A stretch of DNA of 52,869 nucleotides from Bacillota bacterium (GTDB lineage: Bacteria; Bacillota; Clostridia; Saccharofermentanales; DTU023), in NCBI GenBank assembly GCA_029570375.1, contig JAKPXB010000034.1, forward strand, positions 1 to 52,869. The letters run 5' to 3'. The notes under the pieces are model-generated. The model worked only from the letters and a program-made list of their open reading frames with translations. It had not been told where the DNA came from and made no database searches. Positions within the stretch are counted from its first letter, which is position 1; every line of letters starts with the position of its first letter. Position numbers and translations under genes: made by a program. Positions 8,295 through 46,017 of the stretch are shown here, in pieces.

Positions 8295-9123
8295 TCAGCA
8301 GAAACTCGAGAGCGGAAGGCAGCTCCTCCGCCCACGAATGTTCACTGTGGTCTTTCGTTGGCACCTGATGAAAAATCATCTCGTATTGACCTGAAAGTGC
8401 CAGCCCGCGCACAAAATCGGCGGCAGGCGCGACAAACTCAGATTCAAATCCGAACCCACCCACATAAAAGTAAAAACGCGTGAAAGCAGGACACACCCGC
8501 ACCATATCCAGCAGCTCCCGCCGGGCATCCACGTCAAGCGCCGCGAGGGCGGGAGAGAAACAGACTGTCCCCATGAACAGACCCGGGCTCCGCGAAAGGA
8601 TGCAGAGAGAGATCAGCCCGCCCATCGAACTCCCGCCGATCAACAGCTTCCCCGATTCGGCGACACCGGGAAATTCCGACAGTACAAAGGGTACGAGCGT
8701 ATCAGTAAAAAAACCCGCATATCTGTCTCCACGCGGCGAATCAATGTAATCGGACCAGCGGCTGTTCAGTCCTGCGGAATAACACTGATTCACGGCCATC
8801 GGCGGGCAGTATTCGTTGAATCTGTTCAGGCTCTGATCAACGCCGACGACAATCAGCTGACACGCATGTTTTTCCGCGTAATCATCTGCCGCCCTATCCG
8901 CCTGCCACACACCGGAAAACGGCATCGCTCTATCTGCCTCCCACCCGGCAGGAAACGCGTCCGGCAGATCGAAGAGATTCTGTGCGTCATGCATAAAAAG
9001 CGCCGCAGAAGGCTGTTCCGGACGGTAGTGATCCGGCGTCCAGACGCGTACAGTTTTAACCTCGCCGAGCTGGGGAGCATGGATCCGATAGCCGTACATA
9101 TTCTGTTCTACGAATTGTTTCAA
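8290..9123 (-). CDS. Alpha/beta-hydrolase, enterochelin-esterase-like
   Basis: A 277-residue hydrolase of the Fes/YbbA/esterase-D-like group. Visible features: VRVWTPDHY and an ALFMHDAQNLFD segment near the start (oxyanion/loop region), the nucleophile elbow GGSSMGG around residue 165, a candidate acid in the YFYVGGFGFESEF region, and the C-terminal KDHSEHSW with the catalytic His candidate. No signal peptide, so it acts in the cytosol. Its ATG overlaps the stop of the upstream RACo-like gene by 4 nt, making it the last gene of the large sugar/methyl-transfer operon. A cytosolic esterase there could remove acyl groups from an imported sugar. The substrate is not evident. Confidence 0.8.
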   Translation of the reverse strand: MKQFVEQNMYGYRIHAPQLGEVKTVRVWTPDHYRPEQPSAALFMHDAQNLFDLPDAFPAGWEADRAMPFSGVWQADRAADDYAEKHACQLIVVGVDQSLNRFNEYCPPMAVNQCYSAGLNSRWSDYIDSPRGDRYAGFFTDTLVPFVLSEFPGVAESGKLLIGGSSMGGLISLCILSRSPGLFMGTVCFSPALAALDVDARRELLDMVRVCPAFTRFYFYVGGFGFESEFVAPAADFVRGLALSGQYEMIFHQVPTKDHSEHSWAEELPSALEFLLK

Positions 9124-11222
9124 AATGTCATCTCCTCCACAAAAGCGGCGGCAAAATAAGGATCGGCCGCCAGATCCAGCGTTTCAGCCGTATCGGATAT
9201 GTCAAGCGCTTCGCGGTGTTTCGCCTCGTTGAGTACCGTCATGATACAGCCTTTAGCGGACGAGTTGCCGATCATGATCAGCTTGTCTCTGAGCGCAGCG
9301 TCCAGCATACCGATGGAAAACAAATCGTCCTGCCGCAGGCCGTTGCCGAATCCTCCCGCGAGATAGACACGCCCGATCTGAGAGAACTCAACCTCCTTCG
9401 AATGCAGCAGCGCGCGCAGTCCGGCTGAGACCGCACCTTTCGCCAGCTGCAACTGGCGGACATCCCGCTGCGACAGGAAAATCCTGTCATTGATAAATAT
9501 TTTTTCAGGAATCATACGGCCTGTCTCATCGATGGCTCCTTCCCGCCGAAGCAGGGCGGCAAGGCTGATGAGCCCGCTCCCGCAGAGTCCGCGAGCCTCT
9601 GAGCCGATAAAGGTGAGATGGAATCCGTCCCCGTCCCGCTCTACTCTGGTAACCGCCCCTTCGATGGCCGGCATCCCGCATTCGGTCGAGACACCCTCAA
9701 ATGCCGGGCCGGCCGCTGAGGACGCGGTGCAGATTTCTCTGTCGTTAAAGAGGGCAATTTCGCCGTTTGTACCGAGATCCATCAGCACGGAATAGCCGCC
9801 GCTCCTTTCACAGCTCAGGATTCCCGCCACGATATCCCCGCCGATATACCCGGAGATGACCGGCATTATGTACACATCGCAGGGCATGCCCAGACTCCCC
9901 GCCGGAAATACCCGTTCATGCGTATAGGCAGGGCGGTAGGGAGCCTGCCCGATGGATGAAACCGGTTCATCCGCCGCGATCATCTGCATCACCGTATTGC
10001 CCACGATACCGAGGACGGCGAGATCGCGTGCCGCAATCCCCGCGTCGGAAACCAGTGAATCGAGAGCTTCTCTTACGCTCTCGGCGATAAGGGTGTGCAG
10101 TGTCCGCAAACCATCCTTCTCCCTGTCACAGTACGAGATGCGGGTGACCACATCCGCGCCGAAACGGCGCTGCGGATTCATGAAGACTCGCGAACTGACG
10201 ACGCGCGGACCATGTTTATCGACGAGGTAGACACAGACCGTTGTCGTTCCGATATCCGCTGCCGCAAAATACCGGCCTTCCCCGGATAACCGGTCGGGTT
10301 CGAGCGGACCAATCGTAAAATCACGCAGGATACTCGCGCGGAACGGCTGCCGATAGCTGATCTCCGTGTCCTCGGAAAGCCGGTACGAGCAGGCGAGCCG
10401 CCAGCCTTCCCGCGTCTTCTCTCCCAATAATTCTGTGTCGCGGATAGACGCCGGCTGCGCATTCCCCGTCACCCGGACCGCGCACTTACCGCAGCGACTG
10501 TTGCCGCCGCACGGGAACTCGATATTGGGATCGTATCGGCGGAGGGCGTCAGAAAGCAGCGTACCACGGTGAAGTTCGAGGACATCCGTTCCCGTCCGTC
10601 CGGCGATTCGCAGCCGCACCCTGTCATCCTGCCGGTAGGGGCACTGAGGGGCATGGCACGCGTCACAGCTGTAAGGCTCGGCGCGGGAACCAGGCGCCCC
10701 TATCTCATAGATAAGCGCCGTCGACTTCACCGGGTGCATGTATAAATGCGCCGAAAGGCTGACTGCGCTCTCCGTTACTTGTATGATCGGTTCCGACAGA
10801 TCGAGCGGACAGTTCGCGCCGGGCTCCAGGCAAAGCCTCAGGGAGCAGTCTTCAGCGGCACTGTAAGCGTCAAGAAACGCCTGCTGTGTTTTCCGCAGCG
10901 CCGCGTTCTCAAGCGCATCGACGATCCACGCGTCTGTCTCATCTTTGATGGGCGCTTCCTGAACTCTCTCCACCGCCGCGACAACGAACAAGTACGCGCG
11001 GTTATCGTTGAGATAGCGCGCGAGCACCGGGTTGCGCGGCGGGTCATGCTCAGATTCGGCCCGCGCGCTGACCCGCCTGTAGCTCACGGTGGCTTCAGCG
11101 TGCTCATTCACCCAGCGGCACCACCGCATCACATCAGCTCTCAGCTCGCTGAAGACGGCCGCGCTCATTTTCGTGAAGCGCGACAGGTCTTCAGGATTCA
11201 CATGGACCCTCTCTCTGTTCAT
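9120..11222 (-). CDS. RACo-like corrinoid reductive activator with extra N-terminal domain
   Basis: Reductive activators of corrinoid enzymes use a [2Fe-2S] ferredoxin domain and an ASKHA ATPase domain to return inactive Co(II) corrinoid to Co(I). Here the plant-type [2Fe-2S] motif is at about residues 238-278 (C238, C244, C247, C278, around FPCGGNSRCGKC), and the ATPase domain starts with ADIGTTTV at about 322 and includes DLGTNGEIAL and the C-terminal LAGGFGNGL. The first 200 residues are not part of the usual protein. They resemble the small vitamin-B12-dependent methionine-synthase activation-like proteins of anaerobes, including a HPVKSTALIYEIG strand and a CDACHAPQC cysteine cluster (186-194). 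The gene overlaps both the corrinoid protein gene and the esterase gene by 4 nt, so it clearly serves this operon. Confidence 0.88.
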   Translation of the reverse strand: MNRERVHVNPEDLSRFTKMSAAVFSELRADVMRWCRWVNEHAEATVSYRRVSARAESEHDPPRNPVLARYLNDNRAYLFVVAAVERVQEAPIKDETDAWIVDALENAALRKTQQAFLDAYSAAEDCSLRLCLEPGANCPLDLSEPIIQVTESAVSLSAHLYMHPVKSTALIYEIGAPGSRAEPYSCDACHAPQCPYRQDDRVRLRIAGRTGTDVLELHRGTLLSDALRRYDPNIEFPCGGNSRCGKCAVRVTGNAQPASIRDTELLGEKTREGWRLACSYRLSEDTEISYRQPFRASILRDFTIGPLEPDRLSGEGRYFAAADIGTTTVCVYLVDKHGPRVVSSRVFMNPQRRFGADVVTRISYCDREKDGLRTLHTLIAESVREALDSLVSDAGIAARDLAVLGIVGNTVMQMIAADEPVSSIGQAPYRPAYTHERVFPAGSLGMPCDVYIMPVISGYIGGDIVAGILSCERSGGYSVLMDLGTNGEIALFNDREICTASSAAGPAFEGVSTECGMPAIEGAVTRVERDGDGFHLTFIGSEARGLCGSGLISLAALLRREGAIDETGRMIPEKIFINDRIFLSQRDVRQLQLAKGAVSAGLRALLHSKEVEFSQIGRVYLAGGFGNGLRQDDLFSIGMLDAALRDKLIMIGNSSAKGCIMTVLNEAKHREALDISDTAETLDLAADPYFAAAFVEEMTF

Positions 11223-11854
11223 GATTTCTTTCCGAGAACCTCACGGGCGAGTTCGGCGGCGGTGGCGGCATCAGCGGTATAGTGATCCGCGCCTATTTCC
11301 TCGGCGTATCGGGCGGTAACGGGCGCGCCGCCGATCATGACGATAAAGCGATCGCGCAGTCCCCTTTCACAGAGCAGGTCGATCACGGATTTCATATGCG
11401 CCATAGTCGATGTGAGAAGAGCGCTCATGCAGATAAAATCCGCGTCCGCTTCGCACGCTTTATCGACAAAGGCGCCCGCTTCCGCGTCGACCCCAATATC
11501 AATGACTTCGAAACCCGCTCCGACGAGCATCATTTTGACAAGATTTTTCCCTATATCGTGCAGATCGCCCTGAACGGTTCCGATGACCGCTTTCCCTATC
11601 GGCTTGACTCCGGTATCTGTAAGAATCGGCCTGATAATATCGAGACCGTAGTTAAGGGCGCGGGCTGAGATCAGGACCTCAGGAACAAAAATCTCGTTGT
11701 TCTTGAACTTCTTCCCCACTTTGCTCATGCCGTCAAGCAGCGAATCAAGGATAACTTTGACATCCGTCTTCTCTTCGACCGCTTGACTGACCAACGAGGC
11801 GACGCGTTTCGCCTGTCCCTCTTCGACGCCCTGCGCGATTTCATTCAAATACAT
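11219..11854 (-). CDS. Corrinoid-binding methyl-shuttle protein (MtaC/MtbC type)
   Basis: A small cobamide carrier that shuttles a methyl group between two methyltransferases. The N-terminal helical cap domain (about residues 1-85) is followed by a Rossmann-like B12 domain with the cobalt-ligand motif DLHDIG and then GKNLV, the SALLTSTM strand and the GGAPV loop. These are the DxHxxG, SxL and GG landmarks of the family. The length of 211 residues is normal. I place the start at the ATG at 11854. A GTG four codons upstream is an alternative. The stop overlaps the start of the RACo-like gene. Together with the adjacent UroD-family methyltransferases it forms the core of a corrinoid-dependent demethylation system. 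Confidence 0.93.
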   Translation of the reverse strand: MYLNEIAQGVEEGQAKRVASLVSQAVEEKTDVKVILDSLLDGMSKVGKKFKNNEIFVPEVLISARALNYGLDIIRPILTDTGVKPIGKAVIGTVQGDLHDIGKNLVKMMLVGAGFEVIDIGVDAEAGAFVDKACEADADFICMSALLTSTMAHMKSVIDLLCERGLRDRFIVMIGGAPVTARYAEEIGADHYTADAATAAELAREVLGKKS

Positions 11855-11881
11855 GTGCAACCCCACCCTTTCTCCCTTCCG

Positions 11882-12913
11882 TTATTCAGGCGCTCCCGCC
11901 GCGCCTCCGGAAGAAAACCCGGCAACCGCCTCAAAGAAGGCGTCAATGTTCTCCCATTTGGCATGCGGAGGAATATCGCACCCGGATGAAATAACAAAGT
12001 TCCTGTAATCATGGCATTCTTCCATGATCCGGCGGGTCTCGGCGCGAATACCCTCGGGCGTGCCCCCCACGAACTGTGCCGCGGGGTCAACATTGCCCAT
12101 AACAACTGTGTCACGCGGGAAATACTTCAGGATCTCCCTCATGGAAACCGCGTTCCCGAAATGATACGCGCCGCACCCGGTGGCGAGGATGGAGTCTGGC
12201 ATTCTGACGGTCGAACCGCCGCAATTGTGGTAGACAACCACGAAACCATCATCCTGCACGGCGTCGACGATTCTCCTGACGTAAGGCTCAGAAAATTCAT
12301 GCGCCAAAGCGGGAGAGAGAAGACCCGCGAGAGGTTCTGCCATGATCACGCCGTGGACTCCTTCACGCTTGTATGCGCGCGCATAAGCAATAAGGAAAGA
12401 CGCCGCTTTATCAAGCACCTTCTTGATCAGCTCCGGATTTTCATAGCAGAGGATCATTGCCTCCGTCACGTCTACGAGCCGTCCCGCGAGCGAGAATGGG
12501 CCGATGATCCCGGCCAGCACGGGGCGGTCGCGGATCACCTGCAACGCCTTCCGGGCGGCGCGGAGGTAGATCTCCGTACGGCCGGCGCCCGGTTCGGGAA
12601 TCCTGAGAGCGTCCGCCTCTTCTTCCGTTGTAACAATCCTGCCGGTAACACAGGGAATCTCATGATCAAAAAAACGCACATCGCTTCCGAACGCCTCTGC
12701 CTCAACCGACAGATCCATCAGGCTGACCGACGCCAGCGACGGAGTCCGGTCGGCAACCGCTTTCATACCCCTGACCTGATAAGTATCAGAGAAGATAAGT
12801 TCTCTCACGCTGATCCCCAACAGCTGAACGCACGGAAATGATAAAATCGGCAGAGCTCCCGCGGGCTTATCCCCAATCAGACTGTCTAACCACTGTTTCG
12901 TATTGAAGCTCAT
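11882..12913 (-). CDS. UroD-family zinc methyltransferase (MtaA/CmuA-like)
   Basis: Member of the uroporphyrinogen-decarboxylase superfamily, which in this context acts in corrinoid methyl transfer rather than haem synthesis. The sequence contains the H-x-C motif (H229, C231 in VVYHNCGG) and a distal Cys (C312 in SSGCDIPPH), which match the HxCx(n)C zinc site of methylcobamide:thiol methyltransferases such as MtaA. Length of 343 residues is typical. Its start is 3 nt downstream of the preceding UroD-like gene, and its stop is 27 nt before the corrinoid protein start, so it is tightly operonic. It is the best candidate for the zinc-dependent methyltransferase that acts on the methylated corrinoid or directly on substrate. 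The acceptor is unknown. Confidence 0.88.
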   Translation of the reverse strand: MSFNTKQWLDSLIGDKPAGALPILSFPCVQLLGISVRELIFSDTYQVRGMKAVADRTPSLASVSLMDLSVEAEAFGSDVRFFDHEIPCVTGRIVTTEEEADALRIPEPGAGRTEIYLRAARKALQVIRDRPVLAGIIGPFSLAGRLVDVTEAMILCYENPELIKKVLDKAASFLIAYARAYKREGVHGVIMAEPLAGLLSPALAHEFSEPYVRRIVDAVQDDGFVVVYHNCGGSTVRMPDSILATGCGAYHFGNAVSMREILKYFPRDTVVMGNVDPAAQFVGGTPEGIRAETRRIMEECHDYRNFVISSGCDIPPHAKWENIDAFFEAVAGFSSGGAAGAPE

Positions 12914-12916
12914 CTT

Positions 12917-13957
12917 TTATTCCTCGTAATCCTCATGCGCCGCGCGGAGAAGCGCCTTGTAGTTCTCGTCCGGTATGTAATCGGGAACGCTGTTGCCGCT
13001 GCCGAGCGCATAGCCTCCCCGGCTTCGCGTCCGGCGCAGCATCGCTCGGCAGCGGCTGTAAATTTCTTCCGGGCTTCTCCGCGCGAGAAAATCCACGTCA
13101 ATCCCTCCCAGAACAGCGATGCGGCTGCCTACCGTCTCGTAAGCCTCCTCGACAGGCGTGATCTTGTCCTCATAACTATGCCTTCCGTCGAAGCCGATGG
13201 AGTCAATAATGTCGTCGATAATACCGCCGTAAAATCCGCAGGAATGCAGAATCGCGTATTTGCCTTTGGCGTGCGCCGCCTCTGCCACTTCCCTGTACCA
13301 CGGAAACACATACCGGCGGAGGACAGCCGGGGGAAACATGGTCTGGCTGTTAAAACCCCAGTCATCATTGCAGAGAACGGCGCCGACTTCATCGTATTCA
13401 AGACATTGGAGGAAATAATCCGTGATCCTCCTCCCGACCTCTTCGAACACATCCGATACGACATCCGGACAGTCATAGAGCATATAGCACATATTCTCAA
13501 ACCCGAGAATTCCGATCGTGTTTTCGAGTATACCGTCTACGCTGAAAGGAATGGCCTTGACGTTCTTGTTCATGTATTCCCCCGCACGGCGGATGATGCT
13601 GAAATCGCACGAAGCGGGTTCAGGCCATACATAGCGGTCAAAACTGGCGCGGTCCGTAATCATCGTACCCTCGTTCAGGGACTTCGTGGCGGCATCCGTT
13701 TGGTAATGCCCCCGGCGCGCAAATTCGAGCCCGCGGACGACTATTGAAGCGTGATCAAAGCCCGCCGAATCGAACGCCTTTATATTTGTTATCACGGCGT
13801 CCAGTTCCGTCGCGTAACTGACCTTTCCTTCGAGCAGCATCGACTCCTTCTGCCGGCCGATAATAAAGTCAAACAGGACAGGCCGTTCTGTCGGTTTTCT
13901 CTCGAGCACGGCGGCAAGATTTCCGAAATCGGGAACACGTGTCTCTTTTCTGAACAT
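12917..13957 (-). CDS. UroD-family protein, second paralogue
   Basis: A 346-residue member of the UroD superfamily. A single H-x-C pair is present (H238, C240 in ILHSCGF), but the region where the zinc-type members carry the distal Cys reads GSGNSVPDYIP, with no Cys. The CNDDWGFNSQ segment and the GGIDVDFL strand are typical of UroD-like proteins found in corrinoid methyltransferase clusters of anaerobes. It may be the substrate-specific methyltransferase, with a different metal arrangement from its neighbour. It ends 3 nt before the next UroD gene. A 74-nt gap with a 7-bp hairpin (13971-13977 with 14003-14009, no T-run) separates it from the upstream lipoprotein gene. A haem-pathway role is unlikely given the neighbours. 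Confidence 0.82.
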   Translation of the reverse strand: MFRKETRVPDFGNLAAVLERKPTERPVLFDFIIGRQKESMLLEGKVSYATELDAVITNIKAFDSAGFDHASIVVRGLEFARRGHYQTDAATKSLNEGTMITDRASFDRYVWPEPASCDFSIIRRAGEYMNKNVKAIPFSVDGILENTIGILGFENMCYMLYDCPDVVSDVFEEVGRRITDYFLQCLEYDEVGAVLCNDDWGFNSQTMFPPAVLRRYVFPWYREVAEAAHAKGKYAILHSCGFYGGIIDDIIDSIGFDGRHSYEDKITPVEEAYETVGSRIAVLGGIDVDFLARRSPEEIYSRCRAMLRRTRSRGGYALGSGNSVPDYIPDENYKALLRAAHEDYEE

Positions 13958-20149: not shown

Positions 20150-21271
20150 TTAACCATCGGAATAAAACAATGCCTCAAACCTTTCATTGAGTTCCATCGC
20201 CTCATGCCGGTCTTTCACGGGCAGACAGATGGAGAAATTACCGCGCTTGAGAAGCTCCCTGTTCTGTTCAATCTCACCGAAGCTTTCGCAGTCAATGGCG
20301 AGACAGGTCCCGCGCGCGTCTCTTACCAGTTCCCCGAGATGTTCGATGGGGCGCGGCTGGTTGGGGTCGGTCGCAAGCCACAGATGCGTCACATGGTCGA
20401 GAGCGCATATCTCGCGGACAAGATACATCGCGCGGCTGTGGCTGTGCATGTGTCCCGATCCGAAAGCGTTGATCACCTTCTGTGTCGCCGGCGCGCAGAA
20501 TTCGCGGTACAGACGGCCGCTGATCATACAGGAGATATCTTCACTCATATTGATCACGCCGCTCGTGTACAACCGCCCGAACGCAGTACCGGAGAGGTAT
20601 TGATCACAAAGCGCATAAATATCTTTTGCGAGATAGATGATGGCGTCGGCGCAATAATCGAGCAGACCGCGCAGACCGTCGGGATCGTCATAAAAATCGT
20701 AGTAGATCTGATCGCCCCGCAGACTCGCCGCGAGGTCGCACGGCGAGAAGAATCCCCGCAGGAACGGAAATCCGCCTCTGGCGCACATTCTGATCAGATT
20801 CTCACAGATGGCGAGCAGTTTTCCATACCACACACTGGTGCCCAGAGGGGGAAGATTAACATAATCTCCGACATTCGCTAACTGAGGAGCAGACCAGCTC
20901 GTGTCCCTCTGAAACACAATGTCTCCGGCGACAAAGGCGGAATAATCTCCGATACCCAGCATAGGCGACAGGTATGGGATGTAATTATCTTCCACGCCGA
21001 TCCGCGCGTTCATCGAGCGGAAGAGAAGCTCAGCCCACAAGTCACAGTATGCATCGATATCATCTTCAAAATTAAAAGATGTCAGATCGATCTCGTCATA
21101 CATGCTGACATCCGAAGGCAAAAGCGCGCGGAACGTGACATGCCCTCCTTCGCGCCTCCGTGCGGCTTCCCACGTATCGCGCTGTCTCGCCACCGTGCTC
21201 GCGACTGTCGGCTTATAGTACTCGATCGGGCGTATTTCCATAGCGCTGACCCTTTCCAGACGTAAATCCAT
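20150..21271 (-). CDS. UroD-like protein, third and most divergent paralogue
   Basis: A 373-residue protein that looks like a remote member of the UroD superfamily: the layout of GIGDYSAF, a long helical middle part, a GHMHSHSRAMYLVREI strand in place of the usual H-x-C loop, and a final strand with LLKRGNFSICLPVKD. No cysteine motif matching the zinc site is visible, so it may bind a sugar or another methylated compound without the same metal centre. The gene opens the structural part of the operon, between the TrmB regulator and the transporter. An internal ATG at 21241 with GGAAAGGG upstream is a credible alternative start. Its place beside the importer suggests it acts on the imported compound. 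Family assignment is moderate. Confidence 0.6.
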   Translation of the reverse strand: MDLRLERVSAMEIRPIEYYKPTVASTVARQRDTWEAARRREGGHVTFRALLPSDVSMYDEIDLTSFNFEDDIDAYCDLWAELLFRSMNARIGVEDNYIPYLSPMLGIGDYSAFVAGDIVFQRDTSWSAPQLANVGDYVNLPPLGTSVWYGKLLAICENLIRMCARGGFPFLRGFFSPCDLAASLRGDQIYYDFYDDPDGLRGLLDYCADAIIYLAKDIYALCDQYLSGTAFGRLYTSGVINMSEDISCMISGRLYREFCAPATQKVINAFGSGHMHSHSRAMYLVREICALDHVTHLWLATDPNQPRPIEHLGELVRDARGTCLAIDCESFGEIEQNRELLKRGNFSICLPVKDRHEAMELNERFEALFYSDG

Positions 21272-26419: not shown

Positions 26420-27871
26420 TCATTCGCGGACGCGAACCCCTGTGTCTGCCGCTGTCAGCATCCTGAGATAGCGCCTGTGCTGTTCCGTCACCGGTTCACC
26501 CGGCCAGACAATCGGCATCCCCGGTGGATAAGGCGCGATGATATGCGCCGCGGGTTCCGCCGCCAGTCTATTGGCATCCGGGACTGAAAGGGGATGTAAG
26601 GGCGCATCCGGCCGGCTGCCAAACAAAGCCTGCCTCGGAGACATAAGGAAATCCGCCTCTGCCGACAGGAGGCTGTCGCGCATCGATTCAAGTTCTTCGA
26701 TGGCACGCACATGCCGATCCATCTGTACTGTATTCTTTTCCGGGCGAATCGAGCAAAGCGCCTCGCTGAGAATTGCATAATCCTCTTCGGGCTGATCGAT
26801 TGACGGAATAAAGACAGCGCGCCGGCTGTCCACCAGTTCCGCGTCTATGCCGGACTGATCAAGCTTTCCCGCGAATTCCGCCCGGGTTAAACCCGTCCCC
26901 GCGTAATCGATCACAAGCCTCGCCAGATCCGTTCCCGGCGGACAGATACGGCGATAATATGCGGGCAGGCTATCGGACAGCTGCCTGTTGAGGTGTACGA
27001 GGCGCTCGACACAGGCGCGCCCGTCCCGTTCAAGCATCGCGCGCGCGATGTCAGTACTCGCCGCTATGAGAAAAGAGGGGCTCGATGTCTGAAAAACGCG
27101 CACCAGAGACGCACAGCGCCGGGGCGAAATCCGGCCGCAGGCGATGCTCTCCCCGGAGAGGTGGAGAAGTGAGGCGGGCGTGAGCGCGGGCAACGTCTTG
27201 TGCGCGCTCTGAGCGGCGATGTCCGCTCCCTGAGAAAGCGCTGTCGGCGGCAGCATCTCCGGTGCGGCGACAAAATGCGCCCCGTGCGCCTCATCGACCA
27301 GCAAAACCATGCCAAGCCGGTGCGCCTCTTCCGCAATATCCCGAAGATCAACCGTGTTCCCGTAGTAATCAGGGCGCGTCACATAGCACGCTTTCGCCTG
27401 AGGGTGCGCCCGCATCGCGGCGATAAAGGATTCCGCATCCGGCTGACCGTCCCGGAAGGGTTTCCCGCTGTTCGGGCGGACAAAGCGTGGGCGGAGCCCG
27501 AGCAGCGCGGCGGCGTGAACCGCCGCCATGTGAACAGCGCGCGGCATCACCACTTCATCGCCTTCGCGTAACGCGCAGGCCAGCATGATACGTATAGCTG
27601 TTGTCGTCCCGGTCGTAATAAACCACGTCTCTCCCGCCCCAAAGAACCTGGCGGCGAGTTCATACGCCTGACGGACATGTCCCTCCGGTTCGGCGAGATC
27701 ACCTGTCCGTTCCAGCTCTGTCGTATCGCAGCGAGCCAGCGTCCGGATCATTTCATCTGAAAAAACGCGCCCCTGACGGTGTGCGGGCATATGAAACGAA
27801 ACGCGGTCTGCCTGCCGGCAAAGCGCGTTCCAGAGAGGGGTATCCGGTAAGTTATTTTCCCGCCTTATCAC
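26420..27871 (-). CDS. Orn/Lys/Arg decarboxylase-family PLP enzyme
   Basis: A fold-type I, pyridoxal-phosphate enzyme of 483 residues, like the YaaO/CadA-type proteins encoded beside tmk in Clostridia. The N-terminal part shows PLWNALCRQADRVSFHMPAHRQG and CDTTELERTGDL, the cofactor region contains ITTGTTTAIRIML (phosphate loop) and LLVDEAHGAH (Asp pairing with the pyridine N), and the Schiff-base Lys is in QSAHKTLPALTPAS. It decarboxylates a basic amino acid to a polyamine precursor, but the substrate (Lys, Arg or Orn) cannot be decided from the sequence. It follows the basic disordered protein gene by 35 nt. Confidence 0.92.
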   Translation of the reverse strand: MIRRENNLPDTPLWNALCRQADRVSFHMPAHRQGRVFSDEMIRTLARCDTTELERTGDLAEPEGHVRQAYELAARFFGAGETWFITTGTTTAIRIMLACALREGDEVVMPRAVHMAAVHAAALLGLRPRFVRPNSGKPFRDGQPDAESFIAAMRAHPQAKACYVTRPDYYGNTVDLRDIAEEAHRLGMVLLVDEAHGAHFVAAPEMLPPTALSQGADIAAQSAHKTLPALTPASLLHLSGESIACGRISPRRCASLVRVFQTSSPSFLIAASTDIARAMLERDGRACVERLVHLNRQLSDSLPAYYRRICPPGTDLARLVIDYAGTGLTRAEFAGKLDQSGIDAELVDSRRAVFIPSIDQPEEDYAILSEALCSIRPEKNTVQMDRHVRAIEELESMRDSLLSAEADFLMSPRQALFGSRPDAPLHPLSVPDANRLAAEPAAHIIAPYPPGMPIVWPGEPVTEQHRRYLRMLTAADTGVRVRE

Positions 27872-43626: not shown

Positions 43627-43799
43627 CGGCGTTCACCTCACAAATCGAACCGGTGTCCAGTGGAAGCATCGGCAAACCGGCATTGACGATGCAGTCTCAC
43701 GTGATATAATATCCATGTCAAACGGCCACGGAACCCCCTTTTATTGAGACGGGAAATCCAAATGCGGCCGGGCGACACATCAGATGATTCTAACACGCT

Positions 43800-43815
43800 T
43801 TGACTTGCGAGTCAA
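43800..43815. promoter_or_regulatory. Palindrome in the rpoB/murT intergenic region
   Basis: TTGACTTGCGAGTCAA is a 6-bp inverted repeat around TGCG, placed about 30 nt before the murT start. It could be an operator or part of a promoter for murT-gatD. No known regulator can be named from it. Confidence 0.35.
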
Positions 43816-43846
43816 CAGCCTTTTTTCTTTTGGAAGAGAGTTTTTT

Positions 43847-45313
43847 GTGGCACTTCGACGCACACCTCGTTTCATCGCGTCCATACTCTTTGTTCGGGCG
43901 ACAAGGGTTGTCATGAAGCTTTTACGGCGGAAGGGAACGCACTTCCCCGGCCAGCTCGCGATGAAACTATGCCCTGATTTCCTCGCGCGCCTGGAAAAAC
44001 CCGACCGGATCATCGCCGTGACAGGTACCAACGGAAAAACCACGGTGGCGAATATGGTGGCGGATATCGCGCGCTCTTTTGGTCTTCGTTTTGCTCACAA
44101 CGCGTACGGAAGCAATATTGAAGAGGGAATCATCACTGCGCTTCTGGACGCGGCGACGCTGACCGGCAGGAAGAAACTCCCCCTCGCCATTCTCGAGATC
44201 GATGAACGGCTGACGCGCGTTGTCTTTCAATCGCTTCACCCGGACTTTCTCGTCGTCACGAACCTCTTCCGCGAGTCTTACCTGAGAAATGCCCACGGCG
44301 AGTTTATCTACCGGATACTGGATGAGAGTATCCCCCCCACCACGCATCTGATCGTCAACGCGGATGATCTCCTCTCGCAGAATCTCGCGGCCGGTCGCCC
44401 CCACACGTCCTTTGGCATTGCGCACCAGCCGGGGGAGCGGGAATTCACCCGGAGCCTGATCCGCGATGTTGTCCTCTGCCCGCGATGCGGAAACCGGCTA
44501 ACCGATACTTTTATTCGCTACCACCACATCGGGCGTTCATACTGCCGTACGTGCGGATGGCACTCGATGACGCCTGATTACGAGATAACGGCCATGTACG
44601 GACAGGCCGGGGCGGATGGCACGGCGTCAGACGATGCGGGATCGTTCGAACCGATCTCTTCTGACAGGCTGATGGAGGCGGAAACACTTGCCGTGAAAAC
44701 CGGGGACTCCGAGGAGCTCTACCCTTTCCGCGGCGAGAACATCCTCGACTTGTACAATGAGCTCGCGGCGATCACGCTGTTCAGGACACTTGGAAAAACG
44801 CGTGAAGAGATCGCACGCGCACTCGCGGGTCTCCGGATCGGCCGATCACGTAAAGAGATCATTCAGACGGGAGAGAAACGCATTTACCGCATGCTCGCGA
44901 AAGGGAAAAATCCCATCGCTGTCAGCCGCGTATTGGAAGCGGTCGATACAATCCCCGGGACAAAACAGTTTATTCTCCTCGTCGATACGAGCACCGGAAC
45001 AGTCACCCCCGAAGACAATGCGGCATGGACTTTCGACGCCGATCTGGCCATTCTCCGCGACCCCGCGGTCAAACGGATCGTCGTCGCGGGGCGTCGGTGC
45101 GAGGACATCCGCGTCGCGCTCCTATTTGCCGGCGTCGACGAAACAAAGATTGTAACGCGGCGCGATAAAAGAGACGCGGCCGACGCGCTGATCATCGAAG
45201 ACGGACCTGAAACGATCGCGATTCTGTACGAATTGTATTCAGAACCGGTATCCCGGGAGGTCGTAAAAAACATCTGCAGCCGCCTGGCGGCGGGAGAGGA
45301 GCCGACGGTATGA
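43847..45313 (+). CDS. murT: MurT-like Mur-ligase-family protein
   Basis: MurT is the ATP-dependent half of the lipid II isoglutaminyl synthase, which amidates the D-Glu of peptidoglycan stem peptides. Visible: the Mur-ligase P-loop TGTNGKTT, an NADDLLS motif, and the zinc ribbon CPRC and CRTCGW characteristic of MurT. The C-terminal DUF1727 part is divergent: the ADG-D-x-x-W-x-W-D stretch usual in MurT reads VTPEDNAAWTFDADL here. I choose the GTG at 43847, since TGGAAGAGAG lies about 7 nt upstream. An ATG 63 nt earlier is an alternative. It overlaps gatD by 4 nt and is divergent from rpoB. Confidence 0.88.
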   Translation: MALRRTPRFIASILFVRATRVVMKLLRRKGTHFPGQLAMKLCPDFLARLEKPDRIIAVTGTNGKTTVANMVADIARSFGLRFAHNAYGSNIEEGIITALLDAATLTGRKKLPLAILEIDERLTRVVFQSLHPDFLVVTNLFRESYLRNAHGEFIYRILDESIPPTTHLIVNADDLLSQNLAAGRPHTSFGIAHQPGEREFTRSLIRDVVLCPRCGNRLTDTFIRYHHIGRSYCRTCGWHSMTPDYEITAMYGQAGADGTASDDAGSFEPISSDRLMEAETLAVKTGDSEELYPFRGENILDLYNELAAITLFRTLGKTREEIARALAGLRIGRSRKEIIQTGEKRIYRMLAKGKNPIAVSRVLEAVDTIPGTKQFILLVDTSTGTVTPEDNAAWTFDADLAILRDPAVKRIVVAGRRCEDIRVALLFAGVDETKIVTRRDKRDAADALIIEDGPETIAILYELYSEPVSREVVKNICSRLAAGEEPTV

Positions 45314-46017
45314 GAATTGAAATCTTGTACGGAGAACTCGCCAATCTCCTGGGCGAGCACGGCTCGCAGAATCTGCTCCTGCGGACCTTCGGTGAAGAGC
45401 ACGTCCTCATGACGCCTTTCCCGGAGAAACCCGCGTTCCCCGATGGCGGTATCGATCTCGTCTATATGGGGCCGATGACGGAACGGTCGCAGGCTCGCGT
45501 TCTCGAAGTGTGGCGCGGACAGAGGGCTCTGTTCAGAGAGGCCATCGATCGCGGCACGGCTTTCTTTTTCGCCGGCAACGCGCTCGATCTCACCGGCCGC
45601 ACCATCGCGTACGAGGAAGGGGAAACGATCGAAGGGCTCGGACTCTATCCGTTCGACACCTTCTGCAGGCGCTACGACCGCCTCAATGAAGTCTTCCGGG
45701 GAGAATTCCAGAAGATGGATATCACAGGTTTCCGGTCGCAGTTCACGACACACAAAGGCGATCTGCGGGCATTCCCCTTTATCCGGACGGCACACGGTTC
45801 CGGCATGATTCCCGGCACGCCGTTCGAAGGCATCCGCGACAAGCTCTTTTTCGCGACGAACCTGCTCGGCCCCTTCCTGCTTCTCAACCCGCCTTTCACA
45901 AAATGGCTGTTCGCCCAGATCGGTTTTGATGGCCCCCTCCCTTTTGAAGACGCGCTCATGCGATCTTATCAGATGCGCCAAAAGGACTTTGAAGAATCGT
46001 TCCCGGCACTGACTTAA
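45310..46017 (+). CDS. gatD: GatD-like glutamine amidotransferase homologue, catalytic residues lost
   Basis: By position and fold this is the GatD half of the MurT/GatD pair. GatD normally hydrolyses glutamine and passes ammonia to MurT. The sequence aligns over its whole length (DLVYMGPMTERSQAR, IEGLGLYPFDTF, LLGPFLLLNPP). However, at the nucleophile elbow the expected CGG reads FFFAGNAL (Ala88 in place of Cys), and in the C-terminal motif, where GatD has YLHGP, the sequence reads NLLGP (Leu186 instead of His). Both key residues of the glutaminase are therefore absent. It probably is a non-catalytic partner or has a new role. The 4-nt overlap with murT shows that it is co-expressed. Confidence 0.85.
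   Translation: MRIEILYGELANLLGEHGSQNLLLRTFGEEHVLMTPFPEKPAFPDGGIDLVYMGPMTERSQARVLEVWRGQRALFREAIDRGTAFFFAGNALDLTGRTIAYEEGETIEGLGLYPFDTFCRRYDRLNEVFRGEFQKMDITGFRSQFTTHKGDLRAFPFIRTAHGSGMIPGTPFEGIRDKLFFATNLLGPFLLLNPPFTKWLFAQIGFDGPLPFEDALMRSYQMRQKDFEESFPALT

Follow-up and report, generated by a model that had tools for sequence, protein, structure and literature searches.

The paired MurT and GatD proteins encoded in the window (the whole stretch of 52,869 nucleotides that was analysed) have lost all three positions of the glutaminase triad, whilst the GatD fold, the catalytic residues of MurT and the operon are kept, under purifying selection, in one old clade of such pairs. This GatD is best read as an obligate pseudo-glutaminase subunit of a glutamine-independent MurT ligase, and the bacteria that host these pairs probably take up ammonia, or some other amine, directly to decorate the peptides of their walls.

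The gatD-like gene (45310..46017, + strand) encodes 235 amino acids and its start at 45310 lies inside the end of murT at 45313, giving an overlap of 4 nt. The coupling of the two genes claimed by the first-pass annotation is borne out more widely, with gatD adjoining murT in nearly all of 34 relatives checked. No Pfam family scored for the GatD ORF, and its 16-17 bits with the NCBIfam GatD models fall far below their cut-offs, which are 400 and 450 (NF045636, 16.7 bits against an equivalog cut-off of 400). The top sequence matches in the PDB, found with phmmer, are to S. aureus GatD (5n9m, 6gs2; E about 8e-4), followed by the GatD of S. pyogenes and S. pneumoniae, with E-values in the range 8e-4 to 5e-3. 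The AlphaFold model is confident (pLDDT 91.6, pTM 0.90), a Foldseek search with it returns the GatD chains of solved MurT/GatD complexes first (6h5e_A, E 3.6e-16), and VIA-align gives a Z of 24.6 over 230 residues against GatD, compared with 16.4 for the next fold (HisH). Given the confident model and the ranking of GatD first, the predicted fold identifies the gene product as a GatD, with the class I glutaminase fold of the GatD subtype, and the earlier claim that the rest of the fold is kept holds. Elsewhere in the window, a corrinoid methyltransferase group (9120-13957 and 20150-21271), with a reductive-activator-like protein, a corrinoid protein and several MtaA/UroD-like proteins, was seen by eye near sugar ABC transporter genes, as was an Orn/Lys/Arg decarboxylase-like gene (26420-27871).

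Within this fold the residues of glutamine hydrolysis have been replaced. An ungapped phmmer alignment and a 104-row MAFFT alignment both place Cys94 of S. aureus opposite Gly89 (45574..45576, +), so the Cys is indeed gone as first claimed, but the column is that of Gly89 and not of Ala88, the residue before it. The catalytic His (H189 in S. aureus) lies opposite Leu186 (45865..45867, +), exactly as had been read, and the loss of Cys and His runs through the clade. In S. aureus GatD the oxyanion hole is formed by glycines and glutamine is held by Arg128 (PMC5871853); Gly60 has become Pro55 in the window and Gly95 has become Asn90 (45577..45579, +), the latter position being Asn in 55/57 sequences of subtypes A and B of the clade. 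On the glutamine side of the pocket Asp93 (45586..45588, +) stands at Gln98, a position that is acidic in 57/57 subtype A and B sequences and Gln in 27/29 canonical ones, whilst Arg124 (45679..45681, +), the counterpart of the glutamine-sequestering Arg128, is kept. The third residue of the triad has been assigned to Asp349 of S. aureus MurT (PMC6113224); an acid of GatD itself, Asp32 in S. pneumoniae or Glu19 in S. aureus, is favoured by PMC6085368, and its equivalent in the window, Glu16, is retained. No Cys is conserved in alignment columns elsewhere in subtypes A, B or C, and neither subtype A nor subtype B has a conserved replacement Cys or His (the best columns reach 0.43 for Cys and 0.57 for His), so the nucleophile has not moved, nor has a misalignment hidden the Cys elsewhere in the fold. 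Judged from the sequence, the loss of glutaminase chemistry from this GatD is supported.

The partner gene (43784..45313, +) encodes a MurT-like Mur ligase of 509 amino acids, with a Mur ligase middle domain (Mur_ligase_M, 5e-6) and MurT_C (3.5e-16) both above the Pfam cut-offs, and scores of 133 bits for NF045635 and 164 bits for NF052464 against NCBIfam equivalog cut-offs of 800. Lys85 of the P-loop TGTNGKTT (44036..44038, +) is kept, as are the Asp140-Glu141 Mg pair, the acceptor Asn111, the Cys4 zinc ribbon and Trp415, whose counterpart is required for S. pneumoniae MurT to bind GatD. Because these ATP- and acceptor-site residues are kept, the ligase half looks active. The triad Asp of MurT (D349 in S. 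aureus, D355 in S. pneumoniae) is Asn412 (45017..45019, +), and Asn occupies this column in 35/42 sequences of subtype A and in 15/15 of subtype C. An insertion of two residues, Gly374-Lys375, in the K..NP loop (44903..44908, +) is shared by 71/71 degenerate MurT, against 0/25 of the canonical ones, and provides a marker of the clade that is independent of the active site. His171 (44294..44296, +) belongs to an RNxH acceptor loop that is found in MurT of subtypes A and B, canonical MurT having no His there; an Mg-binding His is present in ordinary Mur ligases and absent in canonical MurT (PMC6085368). The AlphaFold model of MurT is moderate (pLDDT 76.8) and no conclusions are drawn from it.

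Compared with the MurT/GatD of S. aureus, S. pneumoniae and S. pyogenes, the window pair shares the two-gene operon, the folds and, in MurT, the ATP site, the zinc ribbon and the GatD-contacting Trp, but it differs from them in its missing active-site residues on both subunits, in the insertion and RNxH loop of MurT and in forming a separate clade in all trees. What the first-pass annotation treated as a single odd gene belongs to a clade that extends across the Clostridia. Among 392 genomes sampled across this class MurT_C was found in 207, and 104 GatD and about 95 MurT sequences were read; at least 45 of the 207 carry a degenerate pair. Trees of GatD, of MurT and of both jointly (FastTree) separate canonical sequences (26-30) from degenerate ones (69-72) without exception, with support of 0.998-1.0. 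In the degenerate branch, which includes the window gene, the His is absent from 72/72 GatD and the Cys from 70/72, with homologues that share the losses having 55-65% identity within the genus and family of the window and 32-42% farther out. The dN/dS of gatD is 0.05-0.19, similar to the 0.09-0.12 of murT, which points to purifying selection on gatD about as strong as that on murT. The search for a second, intact gatD proposed earlier found neither a second gatD nor a second murT in the window genome (1.73 Mb, 95.6% complete), which has a single MurT_C match, the only GATase_3 matches being two neighbouring ORFs on contig 50 that are of cobalamin type, going by their length and family.

Three subtypes can be recognised in the degenerate clade. 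The window pair belongs to subtype A, which has the motifs (T/A)GNA(L/M)(D/E), GPMTE and SQFT in GatD and KGxNPIAxSR and ENxxW in MurT; subtype B has GNxxE in GatD and KHENSxSY in MurT, and subtype C has PGE, GTT and QIQM in GatD and KQENPxTLQ in MurT. Most degenerate MurT have DER where canonical MurT has DEA or DEG. Canonical and degenerate pairs occur together in just one of the 45 genomes with a degenerate pair (G351), against ~19 expected at random when relatedness is ignored, and within one genus, with one pair per genome, five genomes have a canonical pair, four subtype A and three subtype B, at different places in the chromosome. Degenerate and canonical pairs thus replace each other, which fits a shared acceptor site; some genomes do have two degenerate kinds, or a canonical and a subtype C pair. 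No conserved neighbouring gene that explains function was found for subtypes A or B. Stem residue 3 was tried as a rule for which pair is carried and was dropped, as degenerate pairs are found with both DAP-type and non-DAP-type MurE. These pairs form one old, widespread and apparently undescribed branch of MurT/GatD without glutaminase, no description of GatD homologues without the Cys having been found in the literature searched, which is weak evidence of absence.

Some individual loci are also of note. In the canonical group a second copy beside a canonical pair (L098, genome G071) has lost its Cys and kept its His and the MurT Asp, apparently a recent and independent loss of glutaminase. 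In a genome from a genus of the window's family, canonical MurT and GatD seem to be fused in a frame of 822 amino acids (L078, G019). On a further contig two gatD-like genes of the degenerate kind are separated by 2.3 kb (L074/L097, G017:C45), one with His and the other with Cys in the Cys column and both with Met in the His column.

For the window pair free ammonia is the likeliest amine, although we hold this reading tentatively and a little short of an even chance. In the lipid-linked precursor of peptidoglycan, MurT would phosphorylate the D-iso-glutamate alpha-carboxylate and condense it, once activated, with an amine that comes direct from the cytosol, whilst GatD would hydrolyse nothing and would be needed by MurT to complete a closed active site and an entrance for the amine; with ammonia the product would be ordinary D-iso-glutamine. 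We infer an active window pair, with D-iso-glutamate as its acceptor and ammonia as its nucleophile. That free ammonia might be used was suggested at the outset and is plausible, since in S. aureus GatD-C94G with MurT loses all glutamine-dependent activity and keeps NH3-dependent amidation of lipid II at pH 8.5, and MurT without GatD is inactive (PMC3266927), thus a dead GatD can be a required subunit. The Cys to Gly change is the same as that in the window, but unlike the engineered single mutant the His, the Asp and the glutamine pocket are also changed here and are conserved in their new state. The Asn of the window MurT is likewise the substitution of MurT-D349N, which abolishes the glutamine reaction (PMC6113224). 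In the window's family, genes for D-ornithine aminomutase and for a second, lysine-type, aminomutase-type subunit are found in the same genome. Ornithine and lysine aminomutase pathways release ammonia, which is likely to be plentiful in this family. As a dead GatD can serve in an ammonia ligase and ammonia is likely plentiful, free ammonia is therefore placed first for the window pair.

Several points count against ammonia. The reaction in S. aureus works at pH 8.5 only and not at 7.5 (PMC3266927). The new pocket residues Asn90, Asp/Glu93, Glu58 and Gln144 almost match the former catalytic residues in conservation and are specific to subtype, as would suit a particular ligand better than ammonia alone, and the loop insertion of MurT with the active-site His of subtypes A and B exceeds what loss of a glutaminase needs. 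To our knowledge no assay of enzymes of the degenerate clade exists, nor a wall report for the window's genus. In ureotelic vertebrates, carbamoyl phosphate synthetase I has kept its glutaminase domain after loss of the Cys and uses free ammonia; unlike the window pair, its synthetase domain is unrelated, it is a single polypeptide and it is confined to one lineage. Archaeal MurT-like proteins also indicate that Mur ligases of the MurT group are not necessarily glutamine-dependent, but these have no GatD at all (PMC11915815), whereas in the window GatD is kept beside MurT.

The other substrate that the first-pass annotation allowed for can be taken as another amine, which is about as plausible as ammonia, if appreciably short of an even chance, and is the preferred reading for one of the sister subtypes. 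MurT would join an amino acid or a diamine to the alpha-carboxyl of D-Glu, with the GatD pocket or the MurT loops selecting it; in subtype C (Acetobacterium, Eubacterium and others) this would be the D-ornithine or D-lysine of a group B bridge, and subtype A may use some other amine. In its favour are pockets conserved by subtype, including the acid that invariably takes the place of Gln98 in subtypes A and B, the genomes with two degenerate kinds or with a canonical and a subtype C pair, and a genome (G136) whose single pair is of subtype C. The HydA1 of G136 is identical over 583 residues to PDB 7q4v/7q4w/8a5e, which we take to be the hydrogenase of Acetobacterium woodii, G136 presumably being A. 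woodii. In a survey of 80 genomes, 14/15 of those with subtype C had the ornithine racemase Orr, against 0/22 of those with a canonical pair that lie outside the window's family (p 2.5e-9 if relatedness is ignored, 1.6e-4 when counted by families). Because the ornithine aminomutase marker OAM_dimer is found in 0/15 of the subtype C genomes, Orr is probably not catabolic in them, and subtype C thus co-occurs with D-ornithine supply in genomes that lack ornithine catabolism. In one genome (G104) orr comes directly after gatD (NF040742, 411 bits, cut-off 480), and in the Eubacteriaceae the subtype C murT-gatD lies near glmM, from which an mnmA-like gene often separates it. The cross-link of group B walls starts from the alpha-carboxyl of D-Glu and runs through a diamino acid, and it is this carboxyl that MurT activates; we know of no gene identified for the group B bridge ligase. 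Two published observations also speak for another amine: Ala, Glu, Lys, Orn and Ser are constituents of the E. limosum wall (PMC4791908), and B2alpha is the peptidoglycan type listed for Eubacterium (PMC11382707). The co-occurrence of Orr, the Orn of the wall and the group B link at the carboxyl of MurT therefore make subtype C a good candidate for the ligase. A broader proposal, in which the whole pseudo-glutaminase clade would be D-Glu alpha-carboxyl ligases with varied amines and subtype C (Acetobacterium, Eubacterium) would add D-ornithine or D-lysine as the group B ligase, is less likely than not.

The case for another amine is, however, weakened in several ways. The association in subtype C comes from few families, the subtype C genome G351 is without Orr, and Orr is found in 0/14 subtype B and 0/10 other subtype A genomes, the MurE of which is of DAP type in most of the cases checked. 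Subtype A genomes of the window's family have Orr and ornithine aminomutase together in 12/12 cases, so D-ornithine supply there does not stand apart from catabolism, and the racemase sits in an ornithine-fermentation operon that explains the link otherwise; Orr was dropped as a sign of D-ornithine use by the window pair. This D-ornithine fermentation operon (G000:C23, L214; also L215-L220) is conserved across the window's family and contains genes for the aminomutase, a MutL-like protein, ornithine racemase and alanine racemase. The MurE of the window genome (G000:C22:31135-32244, L177) has diverged, with 242 bits for TIGR01085, below the cut-off, and without a DNPR/DNPA motif, and no DAP epimerase was found in the window's family, which therefore probably has an unusual stem peptide and a non-DAP peptidoglycan. 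A parallel was considered in the Negativicutes, whose walls are modified with polyamines.

A purely regulatory role, also raised at first, is improbable. GatD would sense glutamine or another metabolite and MurT would bind the precursor without ligating it, and the retention of Arg124 in most of the clade, as the equivalent of the Arg128 that holds glutamine in S. aureus (PMC5871853), agrees with this, but MurT retains every ATP- and acceptor-site residue examined, including all its catalytic residues, and these would be superfluous in a non-catalytic binder. It is very improbable that the pair still draws on glutamine through a separate glutaminase that provides ammonia in trans; a glutamine-dependent asparagine-synthase-like gene does lie 8 nt after gatD in a subtype B genome (G133, L213), but in that genome only, with nothing similar beside the window pair. 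An assembly error, a frameshift or a recent pseudogene can be dismissed, even for a draft assembly such as the window genome, as the same losses recur in dozens of independent assemblies, which rules out sequencing errors at both sites, and the frames are intact and under selection.

With glutamine-independent ligation by MurT as the preferred reading, the finding bears on how clostridial walls are annotated. MurT/GatD is regarded as glutamine-dependent and is a drug target, being essential to both S. aureus and S. pneumoniae, whilst about a fifth or more of the sampled clostridial genomes that bear MurT have a version unable to use glutamine, so it is unsafe to annotate their walls as containing isoglutamine made from glutamine. 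The sensing of wall fragments by hosts is also affected by modification of D-Glu. With ammonia as the amine, amidation would hinge on the ammonia pool of amino-acid fermenters, and if other amines are used the genes would reveal the builder of the D-Glu-linked group B bridge, a question that A. woodii and E. limosum make testable.
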